Assembly (NCBI RefSeq): GCF_003096415.1
Contig: NZ_QEKH01000043.1
Span: 1 to 33,948 of the forward strand
DNA length: 33,948 bases
From: Victivallis vadensis
GTDB lineage: Bacteria; Verrucomicrobiota; Lentisphaeria; Victivallales; Victivallaceae
Direction of reading: 5' to 3'
Of the stretch, positions 2,774 through 22,771 are shown piece after piece. The stretch's first letter is position 1. Every line of letters begins with the position of its first letter. The translations under genes and the position numbers were made by a program. The notes below the pieces were generated by a model. The model was not told the origin of the DNA and ran no database searches. It saw nothing but the letters and a program-made list of their open reading frames with translations.

Positions 2774-3268
2774 ATGGAATTTCAGGAAAAACACACCATA
2801 TCCGTGCTGGTGGAGAATAAGTTCGGCGTGCTGGCCCGCGTGGCGGGGCTTTTCAGCGGCCGCGGCTACAACATCTCCTCGCTGACCGTCCACGAAACCG
2901 AGGACCCCCGTTTCTCGAAGATGACCATCGTGACCACCGGCGACGCCGCGATCCTCGAACAGATCGACAAGCAGCTCAGCAAGCTGATCGACGTGATCCG
3001 GGTCGAAAACCTGACCGGCAGCCACTTCATCGAACGCGAAATGGCGCTGATCAAGATCAAGACCCCCACCCGCGAGGACCGTTCCCAGCTGATGCAGCTC
3101 GTCGAAATCTTCGCCGGAACCATCGTCTCGGTCAGCCGCGAGGAGATCGGCGTTGAGATCGCGGGCAAATCCGACCGGATCGACAACTTCATCGAGCTGG
3201 TCCGCGACTTCGGCATCGTCGAGATGGCGCGCTCGGGCCGCGTCGCGATCGCCCGCTGCGCGAAGTAA
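2774..3268 (+). CDS. ilvN: Acetolactate synthase small (regulatory) subunit
   Basis: Regulatory subunit of acetohydroxyacid synthase, conferring valine feedback on the first common step of branched-chain amino acid synthesis. The 164-residue product has an N-terminal ACT domain (about residues 5-80; TISVLVENKFGVLARVAGLF and the RGYNISSLTV element) and the conserved C-terminal half (EREMALIKIKT, DNFIELVRDFGIVEMARSG). The length is normal. AGGAGAG precedes the ATG. Unusually the catalytic subunit gene ilvB is not adjacent: a terminator lies upstream and repeats follow, so the gene appears monocistronic. A TATAGA-like -10 sits at 2736-2741, but I see no well-spaced -35. Confidence 0.93.
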   Translation: MEFQEKHTISVLVENKFGVLARVAGLFSGRGYNISSLTVHETEDPRFSKMTIVTTGDAAILEQIDKQLSKLIDVIRVENLTGSHFIEREMALIKIKTPTREDRSQLMQLVEIFAGTIVSVSREEIGVEIAGKSDRIDNFIELVRDFGIVEMARSGRVAIARCAK

Positions 3269-3272
3269 TTGC

Positions 3273-3400
3273 CTCCGGCGGCCCGGGGCGCTGCCCCGGG
3301 GCCCCGCCGGGGGCACTTCGTCCCCCGGCCCCCCGACCGGCAAGGTGCCGGCGCCGGGTACGGTTTCGAGTTTTTTGCTGCGCAAAAATCTCAAAACCGG
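3273..3400. repeat. Cluster of four GC-rich hairpins after ilvN
   Basis: Four hairpins stand in series. CCCGGGGC/GCCCCGGG (3282-3300) has a 3-nt loop. GCCGGGGG/CCCCCGGC (3306-3329) has an 8-nt loop. CCGGCA/TGCCGG (3337-3351) has a 3-nt loop. The last, 3361-3399, pairs CGGTTT with AAACCG outside, GAG with CTC next, and TTTTTGC with GCAAAAA inside. No coding signal is seen. The first two look like the pseudo-palindromic GC spacers common after genes in high-GC bacteria and may help end ilvN transcription. Confidence 0.7.
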
Positions 3401-3411
3401 AGGTATTAATC

Positions 3412-3650
3412 ATGGGTTGTGGGAAGTCTATATGCGTTTTACCGCACCGGCACGTTGCCGGTCGGGTTGCAAGGGCGAAGCGCCTTGCCCGTCGGAGACA
3501 GTCACGGCAGCGGCACCTTGCCGCCGCTATGCGCCCAGCTACCGGAGCCTGATTACAAATCAGGCCGCGTAGCGCACAAGGTCTGGAGACCGTTAGGTCG
3601 TAAGACCCGCCTGCCGCGAATGCGGCATGGCTTCCCCGGGAATATTACGA
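3412..3650. repeat. Structured tandem repeat, unit 1 (239 bp)
   Basis: The first of two near-identical tandem units. It begins ATGGGTTGTGGGAAGTCT and ends in a TATTAC motif just before the next unit. Predicted hairpins in order are CCGGCA/TGCCGG (3447-3461), GCAAGG/CCTTGC with an inner GC-GAA-GC, GCGGCA/TGCCGC, CCTGAT/ATCAGG (3548-3564), a two-tier hairpin GGTCT...AGACC with inner GACC/GGTC (3580-3607), and TGCCGC/TGCGGCA. Open frames across it are not conserved, because the unit length is not a multiple of three. It probably encodes a structured RNA or is a non-autonomous repeat; its function is unknown. Confidence 0.85.
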
Positions 3651-3895
3651 ATGGGTTGTGGGAAGTCTATATGCGTTTTACCGCACCGGCACGTTGCCGG
3701 TCGGGTTGCAAGGGCGAAGCGCCTTTGCCCGGCGGAGACAGTCACGGCAGCGGCACCTTGCCGCCGCTATGTGCCCAGCTACCGGAGGTGCGATTGAAAA
3801 TCAGGCCGCGTGGCGCACAAGGTCTGGAGGCCGTCAGGCCGTAAGACCCGCCTGCCGCGAATGCGGCATGGCTTTCCGTGGGGGAAATATTACCA
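3651..3895. repeat. Structured tandem repeat, unit 2 (245 bp)
   Basis: Roughly 92 percent identical to unit 1 by hand alignment. The first 70 or so bases are identical; the differences cluster around 3786-3840 and at the end of the unit. In the two-tier hairpin (3821-3848) the inner stem reads GGCC/GGCC where unit 1 has GACC/GGTC, so an A-T pair (3589/3598) is replaced by a G-C pair (3830/3839). Another difference, one extra T in the CCTTTGC arm, adds a bulge. The unit ends with ATATTACC. Confidence 0.85.
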
Positions 3896-3932
3896 ATGGC
3901 TGCGCGGAGTCTATCGGCGGTATGCGCTGCCG
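3896..3932. repeat. Truncated third repeat unit
   Basis: ATGGCTGCGCGGAGTCTAT resembles the start of units 1 and 2 (ATGGGTTGTGGGAAGTCTAT) and follows the same TATTAC-type junction, but similarity fades within about 40 bases. The rest of the gap to 4074 shows no gene; a short AGCGGAA/TTCCGCT hairpin lies at 4009-4025. Confidence 0.55.
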
Positions 3933-4074
3933 GGGATAACCTGTTCCCGTTGGCGGCCTGGGGTGCTACGTGGTTTTTCCCGATTGCGGTTGCCGATTCG
4001 GAGAAAACAGCGGAAGATTTCCGCTTGAGCCTGAGTTTGAAGTGACACAATAACCCAAAGAGGAGGGATGTGAT

Positions 4075-5541
4075 ATGAAAATATTGAAATTTCCGGCGGT
4101 GATCGTCGCCGCGCTGTTCGGCTTCCTGACGCTGTTCGCGGGGGAGGAGTGGACCGGAGTCGTGAAGATTTTCGCGGTCTCCAGCCCGCCGAACTACTTC
4201 CTGCCGTGGCAGAATTTCAGCCAGCAGTCCGGTTCCGGCACCGGCTTCGTGATCGACGGCAACCGGATCATCACCAACGCCCATGTGGTCGCCTATCCGA
4301 CCTTCATCACGGTCCGCAAGCCCGGCGACCAGACCCGCTATCCGGCGAAGGTGGTCGCGGTCAACCATGAGTGCGACCTCGCGATCCTGACCGTCGAGGA
4401 CCCGAAATTCTTCGACGGCATCAAGCCGCTGGAGCTGGCCGACCTGCCGCCGATGCAGAGCTCGGTCGCGGCGGTCGGCTATCCGGTCGGCGGCGACAAC
4501 GTTTCGATCACCGTCGGCGTGCTGTCGCGCGTCGAACCACTGGAATACTCCCACAGCGGCAAGGAGCTGCTCGGCGCCCAGATCGACGCGGCGATCAATC
4601 CCGGCAACAGCGGCGGCCCCGTGCTGCACGAGGGCAAGGTGGTCGGCATCGCGTTCCAGGGGCTCGGGGAGTCGCAGAACATCGGTTATATGATCCCGTG
4701 TTCCGTGCTGAAGCATTTTCTGGAGGACCTGAAAAGCGGCAAGGTGGACGGTTTCCCGGATGTCCCGTTCGATTATGAGAAGCTGGAAAATCCCGACCTG
4801 CGCGAATATTGCAGGATGAAGCCGGGGCAGTCCGGCATTCTGGTCACCTCCGTTCCGGAAATTCTGGCGGAGCAGGTGCCGCTGAAGGCCGGCGACGTGG
4901 TGATGAAGGTCGAGAATTTCAACATCGCCAACGACGCCACCATCGATCAGGGGCAGGGCAAGGTGCTCTATTTCGGCTGTGTTTTCTGGGAGAAGCAGTT
5001 GAACACCCCCTGCAGACTGACCATCCTGCGCGACGGCAAAGAGATGACGGTCGAAACGAAAACCGTGAAGATTCCGTACCGGATTCCGAATCAGGTCTAC
5101 GACCGCGAACCCGAATATTACATTGCGGGCGGGCTGGTTTTTACCCCGCTGACCGCGAATTTCATCTATTCCGCATGGCGGAACCCCGGCAACATGCCCG
5201 CCGACCTTGCAATCAACCTCGGCAAGCCCCGCAGCCGGCCGGATGAGGAGATCGTGATCGTGTCGATGGTGCTGGCCGATGAGGTCAATCTCGGCTATCA
5301 GAACATCCGGGCGATCCGGGTGGTTTCCGTCAATGGCGAAAAGATCGTGTCGCTGCGTCAGCTCGCGGATCTGATCGACCGGCAGAAGGACGGCTTCCTG
5401 ACCCTTGTGCTCCAGAATGACAACAAGATCGTGATGAATGCCGCCAAAGTCAAGGAGGCGACTCCCCGCGTGATGTTCCGTTACCGGATCGCCAGCGACC
5501 GCAGCACCAATCTCACCAAACCTCTTGTTTTCAAGAAGTGA
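4075..5541 (+). CDS. Secreted HtrA/Deg-family serine protease
   Basis: A 488-residue trypsin-like protease, probably a periplasmic quality-control enzyme. An N-terminal signal peptide (about 1-23, hydrophobic AVIVAALFGFLTLFA) precedes the catalytic domain. The triad is visible: His70 in TNAHVV, Asp101 in HECDLAIL and Ser179 in NPGNSGGP. Two PDZ-like regions follow, one containing PLKAGDVVMKVENFNI (about 267-283) and a second near 410-450 containing IRAIRVVSVNGEKI. The long segment between them (PYRIPNQVYDREPEYYIAGG) is reminiscent of plant and bacterial Deg9/DegP2-type proteins more than of E. coli DegP. AGGAGGG (4061-4067) sits 7 nt before the ATG. It appears monocistronic, with repeats before it and a hairpin after it. 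Confidence 0.85.
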   Translation: MKILKFPAVIVAALFGFLTLFAGEEWTGVVKIFAVSSPPNYFLPWQNFSQQSGSGTGFVIDGNRIITNAHVVAYPTFITVRKPGDQTRYPAKVVAVNHECDLAILTVEDPKFFDGIKPLELADLPPMQSSVAAVGYPVGGDNVSITVGVLSRVEPLEYSHSGKELLGAQIDAAINPGNSGGPVLHEGKVVGIAFQGLGESQNIGYMIPCSVLKHFLEDLKSGKVDGFPDVPFDYEKLENPDLREYCRMKPGQSGILVTSVPEILAEQVPLKAGDVVMKVENFNIANDATIDQGQGKVLYFGCVFWEKQLNTPCRLTILRDGKEMTVETKTVKIPYRIPNQVYDREPEYYIAGGLVFTPLTANFIYSAWRNPGNMPADLAINLGKPRSRPDEEIVIVSMVLADEVNLGYQNIRAIRVVSVNGEKIVSLRQLADLIDRQKDGFLTLVLQNDNKIVMNAAKVKEATPRVMFRYRIASDRSTNLTKPLVFKK

Positions 5542-20388: not shown

Positions 20389-20604
20389 AAAACATAAAAG
20401 AACAGCCGCTTCAGCGGCGTCGCCACCGGCAGCTTGCCGGGCGCAGTCCAGCGCGCGAACAGCGCTGGTCGAAAGCGGAGGGAGCGCGCGCTTCTCAAAA
20501 AGCGAAGCAATTTTGAGACGCGGTTCAAAGCGCGGAGCCGTTGCGAGGGTCGGCGGCAACAGATGGTAATTGCAGACGCGGCCATGCGGGAGCGCTTGAT
20601 GACG
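20375..20604 (+). repeat. Interspersed structured repeat, copy A
   Basis: Terminus TCTCCCGAAAATAAAAAAC, then hairpin GCCGC/GCGGC, hairpin CCGGCA/TGCCGG (20426-20440), a GTCCAGC...GCTGG stretch, hairpin TCTCAAAA/TTTTGAGA (20493-20518), stem GTTG/CAAC and a GGTAATTGCAGACGCGG block ending near TGATGAC. Relative to copy B it lacks exactly one segment lying between two 9-bp direct repeats (GGAGCGCGC). No coding function. Confidence 0.85.
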
Positions 20605-20614
20605 CGAAGCGTCT

Positions 20615-20771
20615 TTGGAGTGCGGAGATTCATCTCCGCTGTCAAGTCGCACCCGGCCTTTACCGTGCCGGTTGTTTGATTTCGTGTGCGGTAAAAGTCA
20701 TGTCCGACTGGAAAGCGGAACTGAAGCTTATCCGGCAAAGCCGGACAAGCCCTGCGGGTTCCGCACTCCAA
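20615..20771. mobile_element. 157-bp element with 12-bp terminal inverted repeats
   Basis: TTGGAGTGCGGA (20615-20626) and its exact reverse complement TCCGCACTCCAA (20760-20771) bound the element. Inside are hairpins GCGGAGA/TCTCCGC next to the left end and TCCGGC/GCCGGA near the right. The left end translates to ECGDSSPL, a string I recall as recurrent in annotated PVC-group proteins, consistent with a dispersed non-coding repeat. No target-site duplication is obvious and there is no transposase. Confidence 0.6.
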
Positions 20772-20880
20772 GGTGGCCGGGCGATATTCTGGCGTGATGC
20801 TGGAGAGTAAGGAAAAACAGGCGGGCTGATTGAGCTTTGCTGCGGTTTTCGGTGGCCGTAAAGGTGATGGTGGCGGCAAC

Positions 20881-20945
20881 GCGCTTACTGCCTGAAATAA
20901 AATGCGCGTTGCTTATTTTTATTTCAGGCAAGCGCTTTTGCGCGA
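20881..20945. repeat. Long imperfect palindrome
   Basis: GCGCTT, then GCCTGAAATAAAA (20890-20902), is mirrored by TTTTATTTCAGGC (20927-20939), then AAGCGC. That gives 19 paired positions with a 3-nt bulge and a 24-nt loop. It lies between the terminal-inverted-repeat element and repeat copy C. The flanking 20772-20880 shows no gene or clear motif. Confidence 0.7.
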
Positions 20946-20958
20946 GAGGTACTGTTGC

Positions 20959-21122
20959 GGTTGCGGTCCGCATTCGCGGACCTTACATTTCGTCTGCTTC
21001 TGAGCTGCGCCTGCGCAGCTCGACAGCAGCCGACCAGCGTTCCGCCGCTGGACCGCGTCCGGCAAGCTGCCGGTGGCGACGCCGCTGAAGCGGCTATTCT
21101 TTATTTATTATTTTTTGGGAGA
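20959..21122 (-). repeat. Interspersed structured repeat, copy C (inverted)
   Basis: Reverse-orientation copy: 21059-21095 is the exact reverse complement of 20404-20440 in copy A (37 of 37). It contains the GGTCCGC/GCGGACC stem (20975-20992) that copy A lacks but copy B has. It ends at 21117-21122 as GGGAGA, the reverse complement of the TCTCCC terminus, which is also the Shine-Dalgarno of gmk. Confidence 0.82.
21117..21122 (+). promoter_or_regulatory. gmk ribosome-binding site located in the repeat terminus
   Basis: GGGAGA lies 6 nt before ATG 21129. It is the terminal hexamer of inverted repeat copy C. Its position decides the gmk start among longer in-frame options. Confidence 0.7.
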
Positions 21123-22273: not shown

Positions 22274-22567
22274 AGTAAAGCCGCATAGCGGCGTCGCCAC
22301 CGGCAGTTTGCCGGGCGCAGTCCAGCGCGCGAACAGCGCTGGTCGAAGGCGGAGGGAGCGCGCAGGCGCGGCTCCCGGAGCTTTCGAAATGTAAGGTCGG
22401 CGAATGCCGACCGCAATGCGGCAGTACCGCCCGGCGGAGCGCGCGTTTCTCAAAAAAGCGAAGCGATTTTGAGAAACGGTTCAGAGCGCGGAGCCGCTGC
22501 GAGGGTCGGCGACAGCGGATGGTAATTGCAGACGCGGCCCTGCAGGAGCGTGAGCTTCCGGTGATGA
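22252..22567 (+). repeat. Interspersed structured repeat, copy B (longest copy)
   Basis: Terminus TCTCCAGAAAATAAAAAAC, GCCGC/GCGGC (22280-22292), CCGGCA/TGCCGG (22300-22314), the stem GGTCGGC/GCCGACC (22395-22412), an 11-bp perfect stem GTTTCTCAAAA/TTTTGAGAAAC (22445-22477), CCGCTG/CAGCGG, then GGTAATTGCAGACGCGG and a TGATGAC end. The 9-bp direct repeats GGAGCGCGC stand at 22355-22363 and 22436-22444. It starts inside the end of coaC. Confidence 0.87.
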
Positions 22568-22683
22568 CAACATACAAAAGAACAGCCGCATAGGTTCAGA
22601 GCGCGGAGCCGCTGCGAGGGTCGGCGACAACAGATGGTAATTGCAGACACGGCCCTGCGGGTGCGTGAGCTTCCGGCGGCGAC
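22568..22683 (+). repeat. Interspersed structured repeat, copy D (internally deleted)
   Basis: Has the start of the element (ACAAAAGAACAGCCGCATAG) joined directly to its 3' block (GGTTCAGAGCGCGG..., 22593 on), so the middle is deleted. The 3' block repeats 22478-22567 of copy B with few changes, giving direct repeats spaced 115 bp. The stretch 22684-22771 up to the next gene shows only its Shine-Dalgarno. Confidence 0.8.
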
Positions 22684-22771
22684 ATGAAAACAGCAATGCC
22701 GCCATCGAAAACCGCAAACAAACTTCGCAGTTTTGCCTGTTTCCCATTTTCTCAGAACAAGGAGCACAGCC

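Follow-up and report, generated by a model that had tools for sequence, protein, structure and literature searches.

The REPs described in enteric bacteria and Pseudomonas are extragenic palindromes, dispersed through the genome, whose stems carry alternative complementary residues; most lie in unidirectional or convergent gaps near the 3' ends of open reading frames (PMC3733652). Within BIMEs they alternate in orientation, and they are tied to RAYT transposases (PMC2817692), while inverted doublets, the REPINs, act as units of spread (PMC3116915). Known insertion sequences interrupt REPs (PMC8450116; PMC2817692). Sequences of the MITE/RU type from enterobacteria (RU: PMC2759123) are likewise non-autonomous, dispersed, intergenic and palindromic. 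The tandem units described here represent a single insertion of a dispersed bacterial hairpin-cassette repeat that had not been catalogued before and that occupies dozens of sites per genome; we found no published description of it in this lineage among open-licence papers.

The window that we analyzed is a 33,948-nucleotide stretch of Victivallis vadensis DNA (NZ_QEKH01000043.1). A preliminary description had marked two tandem units of 239 and 245 bp plus a fragment, sharing high identity and folding into several hairpins each. All of these features are present: the spacings are 239-241, and the units are 93%, 97%, and 92% identical in three blocks. They are housed in the 806-bp gap between ilvN (2774-3268, plus strand; acetolactate synthase small subunit; Pfam PF10369, PF22629) and a downstream gene for a trypsin-like protease with a PDZ domain (4075-5541, plus strand; PF13365, PF17815). 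The element is longer than originally marked, since it starts at about 3270, directly after the ilvN stop codon.

Reading from this stop codon, the first component, 1-2 nt past it, is an inverted E-F-G module with hairpins G', F', and E' (3270-3356, minus strand). This module is the reverse complement of GGCGCCGGCACCTTGCCGG..GGGGGGCGAAGCGCCCCC..GCCGGAGGC, is present at many copies, and scores 39.4 bits (3292-3356, minus strand) with a covariance model of E-F-G alone (R2; 16 pairs). An A+T-rich palindrome, C (GGTTTCGAGTTTTTTGCTGCGCAAAAATCTCAAAACC; 3357-3398), follows; it precedes most copies in the genome. Unit 1 (3412-3650, plus strand, 239 bp) comprises a leader, hairpins E, F, and G, an extra hairpin H, the two-tier hairpins I and J, and hairpin K. 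It scores 147.7 bits (3440-3631) with a covariance model of the full repeat built from 24 copies and 56 pairs (R1), and its E-F-G part scores 77.7 bits (3442-3504). Unit 2 (3651-3895, plus strand, 245 bp), identified by alignment to unit 1 as its tandem copy with some pairs broken, reaches 114 bits with R1 (3679-3872) and 65.9 bits for E-F-G (3681-3744). Last comes the 5' fragment of a third unit (3896-3950, plus strand), whose leader (...GGAGTCTATCGGCGGTATGCGC) resembles the leader TCTATCGGCGGTA of other copies.

What the preliminary description had missed is that the units belong to a dispersed mosaic repeat and are not a single-locus RNA. A DNA search of the organism's own genome (G000) returned 59 matches. 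With R1, about 71 copies scoring at least 84 bits and about 75 weaker or partial ones were found in this 5.2-Mb genome among the best 150 scored candidates, on which the copy numbers rest. Copies of this first family follow a common order: inverted E-F-G, A+T palindrome C, leader, E, F, G, in some cases H, and then I, J, and K. Most of the weaker R1 matches mark the two ends of giant palindromes of about 700-900 bp, a second family, and occur as inverted pairs separated by 630-860 bp. Loci L150-L166 of the own genome are imperfect palindromes of this size with arms of about 300 bp, without an internal ORF, and are located mostly between convergent genes.

The smallest recurrent unit is the three-hairpin module E-F-G of about 63 nt, which is found alone, as inverted pairs, or within longer arrays that include I, J, K, and the A+T palindrome. 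A search of related genomes with R2 detected E-F-G in 38 of 137 genomes of the order, spread over 16 of 48 genera. The module was absent from the sampled genomes of other orders (phylum-wide sample of 289), which served as the negative control for R2. A congener, G005, keeps the full order E-F-G-I-J-K with differing stem sequences. No Rfam family matched at the gathering score and nothing credible appeared up to E = 1.

Other repeats were encountered alongside this family. The window itself contains a large palindromic element of a third family (20391-21110) that starts a few bases past a stop codon, has the outer hairpin GCCGCTTCAGCGGC, and carries an E-F module at each end (20421-20484, plus strand; 21017-21078, minus strand). 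A further intergenic region (22280-22770) holds another E-F-G module (22295-22358), after which come different repeated words that also occur in the element at 20391-21110 (GGTTCA(A/G)AGCGCGGAGCCG(C/T)TGCGAGGGTCGGCG). In G005 (loci L071-L075), several copies of another long repeat (CGCGGCGTTCGCCGCGTCGCTCACACC...GAACCCGGTCGC) lie behind the hairpin repeats. Three near-identical tandem copies with a spacing of 332 bp (L055:2829-3756) represent the most recent amplification seen.

A compensatory base-pair change between units 1 and 2 had been taken initially as a sign of selection on a structure, either an RNA or a DNA cruciform, rather than on a protein. The change itself is real, as read from the sequence and the alignment: the pair A3589-T3598 of hairpin J in GGTCTGGAGACCGTTAGGTCGTAAGACC (3580-3607, plus strand) is replaced by G3830-C3839 in hairpin J of unit 2 (3821-3848, plus strand). 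However, other differences between these two units impair pairing: the largest hairpin has GCCTGATT replaced by GTGCGATT, hairpin F an additional T, and hairpin G a T to G substitution. Two units alone are therefore insufficient to infer selection.

Among 86 full units aligned by fitting to the covariance model, both-side changes occur at 49 of the 56 pairs, 92.8% of the cells are paired, and covariation is scored at 0.313, compared with 0.114 after shuffling and no more than 0.066 when partners are slid. The corresponding alignment of 113 E-F-G copies shows both-side changes at 15 of 16 pairs and a score of 0.422 (shuffled, 0.133; slid, at most 0.062). A preceding MAFFT alignment agrees in direction (13 of 56 pairs; 0.180 versus 0.076). 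When judged against a tree-simulated null, 5 of the 16 E-F-G pairs are significant (E <0.05) versus 1 of 1754 other column pairs; for the full unit, the figures are 5 of 56 structure pairs, all of them in E and F, versus 7 of 14822 others. Covariation is established for E, F, and, in the E-F-G alignment, G, while that for I, J, and K rests on between-lineage changes that are singly not significant under the tree-simulated null. Loop words are kept while the stems change (GCGAA in F, CCAGCT beside hairpin I). A protein-coding origin was rejected: any given frame is open throughout in at most 7 of 39 units, unit lengths fall into all three classes modulo 3, and overlapping ORFs had no Pfam match. 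The both-side changes, the covariation, and the lack of a conserved frame support the part of the original claim that a base-paired structure, and not a protein, is maintained.

Hairpins E, F, G, J, and K each occur as a few discrete alleles, and 39 complete units carry 32 different allele combinations, with linkage only between J and K. Hairpins lying 20-40 nt apart hence recombine almost freely. Because the repeat is a dispersed mosaic, many of the both-side changes are swaps of whole-hairpin alleles and for this reason cannot be counted as independent compensations.

The position of the copies relative to genes is strongly biased. Gene contexts were derived from about 50 genome stretches with a codon-based gene caller made for this analysis. 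Among 46 copies of the own genome for which both contexts were known, none of which lies within a gene, 27 were tandem-sense, 5 tandem-antisense, 14 convergent (gaps that are uninformative on orientation), and 0 divergent; divergent gaps make up 14% of the gene pairs in the same stretches. Counting each tandem locus once leaves 23 sense versus 3 antisense (two-sided binomial, about 9e-5), and the copies sit just behind stop codons. Of 16 palindromic sister elements, 11 are placed between convergent genes, usually at a distance of 15-50 bp from each stop codon. For 35 of 47 copies in other genera, a 3' end is the closest gene boundary, and among the tandem copies there 22 are sense and 7 antisense (a few loci are counted twice in these figures); in G005, the tandem loci are split 3 to 3 and the sense bias is not seen. 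Tolerance of insertions alone does not explain the strong sense bias, which is suggestive of a function. Since the copies lie behind stop codons and are mostly in the sense orientation, transcription as a structured 3' untranslated end is to be expected, and the repeats are probably transcribed as 3'-end hairpins. In their location directly behind stop codons they resemble intrinsic terminators, from which they differ by lacking a U-tract. Canonical U-tract terminators were found at 7 of 88 element-bearing gene ends versus 9 of 65 others; as there is no enrichment at element-bearing ends and no such terminator in the sense strand of the element, this reading was discarded.

The positions occupied are specific to individual lineages, and copies are missing in most close relatives. 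None of the genes flanking copies in G005 is orthologous to those flanking copies in G000 (best identity about 30%), while ilvN is 85% identical between the two. In the relative G006, which is without repeats, the ilvN stop codon overlaps the start of the protease gene, leaving no gap. From the non-orthologous flanks and the gapless arrangement in G006 it follows that the copies arrived at these sites after the lineages had split.

One rival reading is that selection maintains these repeats as a structured RNA, a 3'-UTR element used throughout the genome to end or protect transcripts, whose hairpin sequences drift as long as pairing is kept. The sense orientation behind stop codons, the significant covariation, and the conservation of the loop words amid changing stems would all fit such an element. 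The kinds of mismatch found within alleles point slightly the same way (23 G-T versus 13 A-C), yet this excess is not significant (p 0.13). One inherited G-T variant in hairpin E dominates the corresponding raw cell count, and across the whole alignments the G-T and A-C cells number 101 versus 74 and 20 versus 23. Folding of the sense strand is better than that of the antisense strand in only 15 of 39 units. The mismatch and folding tests favor neither partner of the earlier RNA or DNA alternative. An antisense E-F-G module heads most long copies, and this, together with the lack of copies in most close relatives, argues against a selected RNA, an explanation that we regard as unlikely.

Paired stems could also persist without selection if quasipalindrome correction, by template switching or by conversion among arms and copies, restored them in otherwise inert repeats. 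The free assortment of whole-hairpin alleles agrees with this proposal, as does the finding that 1240 of 1342 stem cells in alignment A2 are Watson-Crick. Against it speak the strongly non-random placement and the survival of the loop words and of the order E-F-G-I-J-K between species whose stems differ; we consider it very improbable.

Several candidates for a mobilizing system were evaluated. The Y1/RAYT transposase (PF01797) is absent from the 99.5% complete own genome, which rules against RAYT mobilization; in relatives, the presence of Y1_Tnp does not track the repeats, and no E-F-G match lies alongside the Y1_Tnp genes at loci L080 and L081. A GTAG/CGTC tag has no fixed position in 171 copies (best position at most 9%). 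No autonomous partner was present in the loci read, and no clear target-site duplication was found; inverted E-F-G modules stand at the ends of the elements. Spread by a group II intron or retron was rejected, as the carriers G000 and G007 possess a reverse transcriptase gene and the carrier G005 does not; there was no Rfam intron match (domain V or intron RNA). A phage or plasmid origin was dismissed as well, with no DNA match and no occurrence by pattern in viral contigs. An association with IS110 was likewise rejected because IS110 genes are found in members of the genus with and without the repeats. On contig C20 of the own genome, a retron-like reverse transcriptase of 321 amino acids with a YADD motif lies beside a 427-bp non-coding stretch (L245:1366-2331); this locus is a possible retron.

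Orientation-specific placement behind genes is also a trait of cassette systems. Under another proposal, an IS110-like or integron-like recombinase would use the hairpins as its ends, target, or guide RNA. The similarity to cassette systems and an IS110-family transposase remnant interrupting hairpin F of one copy (L243:1372-1960; contig C47 of the own genome) can be cited in its favor, yet the proposal is scarcely credible given that this IS110 case is single, that the distributions of IS110 and reverse transcriptase genes described above do not match that of the repeats, and that the modules flank no gene in the loci read.

Compared with the described systems, the repeats come closest to REP/BIME sequences: they are numerous, dispersed, extragenic palindromes with subfamilies carrying alternative complementary stem residues; they form inverted or clustered arrangements, tandem arrays, and mosaics; they prefer unidirectional and convergent gene pairs near ORF 3' ends; and they are targeted by an insertion sequence. 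They differ in having a three-hairpin unit of about 63 nt, extended to about 190-330 nt, instead of one palindrome of 20-40 bp, in lacking both the GTAG/CGTC tag and a RAYT gene in the genome, and in their freely shuffled hairpin alleles. E, F, and G stay together as a unit in 16 genera, at variance with the single-hairpin unit of REP/BIME sequences. Because the tag and the RAYT gene are missing and the unit is not a single hairpin, we do not file the repeats as a RAYT-REP family. REPINs are matched in that inverted doublets around a spacer, here the palindromes of about 700-900 bp, are the apparent unit of spread (PMC3116915), but the elements are much longer and are without an associated RAYT gene. 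With MITE/RU-type sequences they share the non-autonomous, dispersed, intergenic, and palindromic character, and they are set apart by a multi-hairpin array inside, by the lack of terminal repeats matched to a transposon, and by the absence of an identified target-site duplication (RU: PMC2759123).

We therefore consider it probable that the element behind ilvN is a tandem-duplicated copy of a dispersed, non-autonomous, REP/BIME-like mosaic DNA repeat. Points against this reading are the missing RAYT gene, tag, target-site duplication, and autonomous partner, as well as the strong sense bias and its absence in G005. Copies of such a repeat would spread as DNA into intergenic spaces, presumably through an enzyme acting in trans, and would persist mainly behind gene ends, where harm is least. 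Recombination between repeats would then generate tandem units, and the exchange of whole hairpins among copies would turn each copy into a mosaic of a few alleles. Once transcribed, the structured 3' untranslated ends could stall 3' exonucleases or promote termination. A more far-reaching version of this REP/BIME-like reading, in which hairpin arrays spread throughout the order by a RAYT-independent enzyme, settle in the sense orientation behind stop codons, are swapped hairpin by hairpin, and constitute a shared movable transcript-end module, is one that we offer tentatively and hold to be rather doubtful.

With these findings, the range of REP/BIME-like repeats comes to include a lineage in which the unit is much larger, consists of several hairpins, and, in the genome studied, occurs without a RAYT gene. 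The question of the mobilizer thereby becomes accessible to tests that compare presence and absence across close relatives. The family also offers a clear-cut natural example of copies exchanging whole hairpins; such exchange can look like compensatory evolution and can thereby mislead covariation tests for structured RNA.
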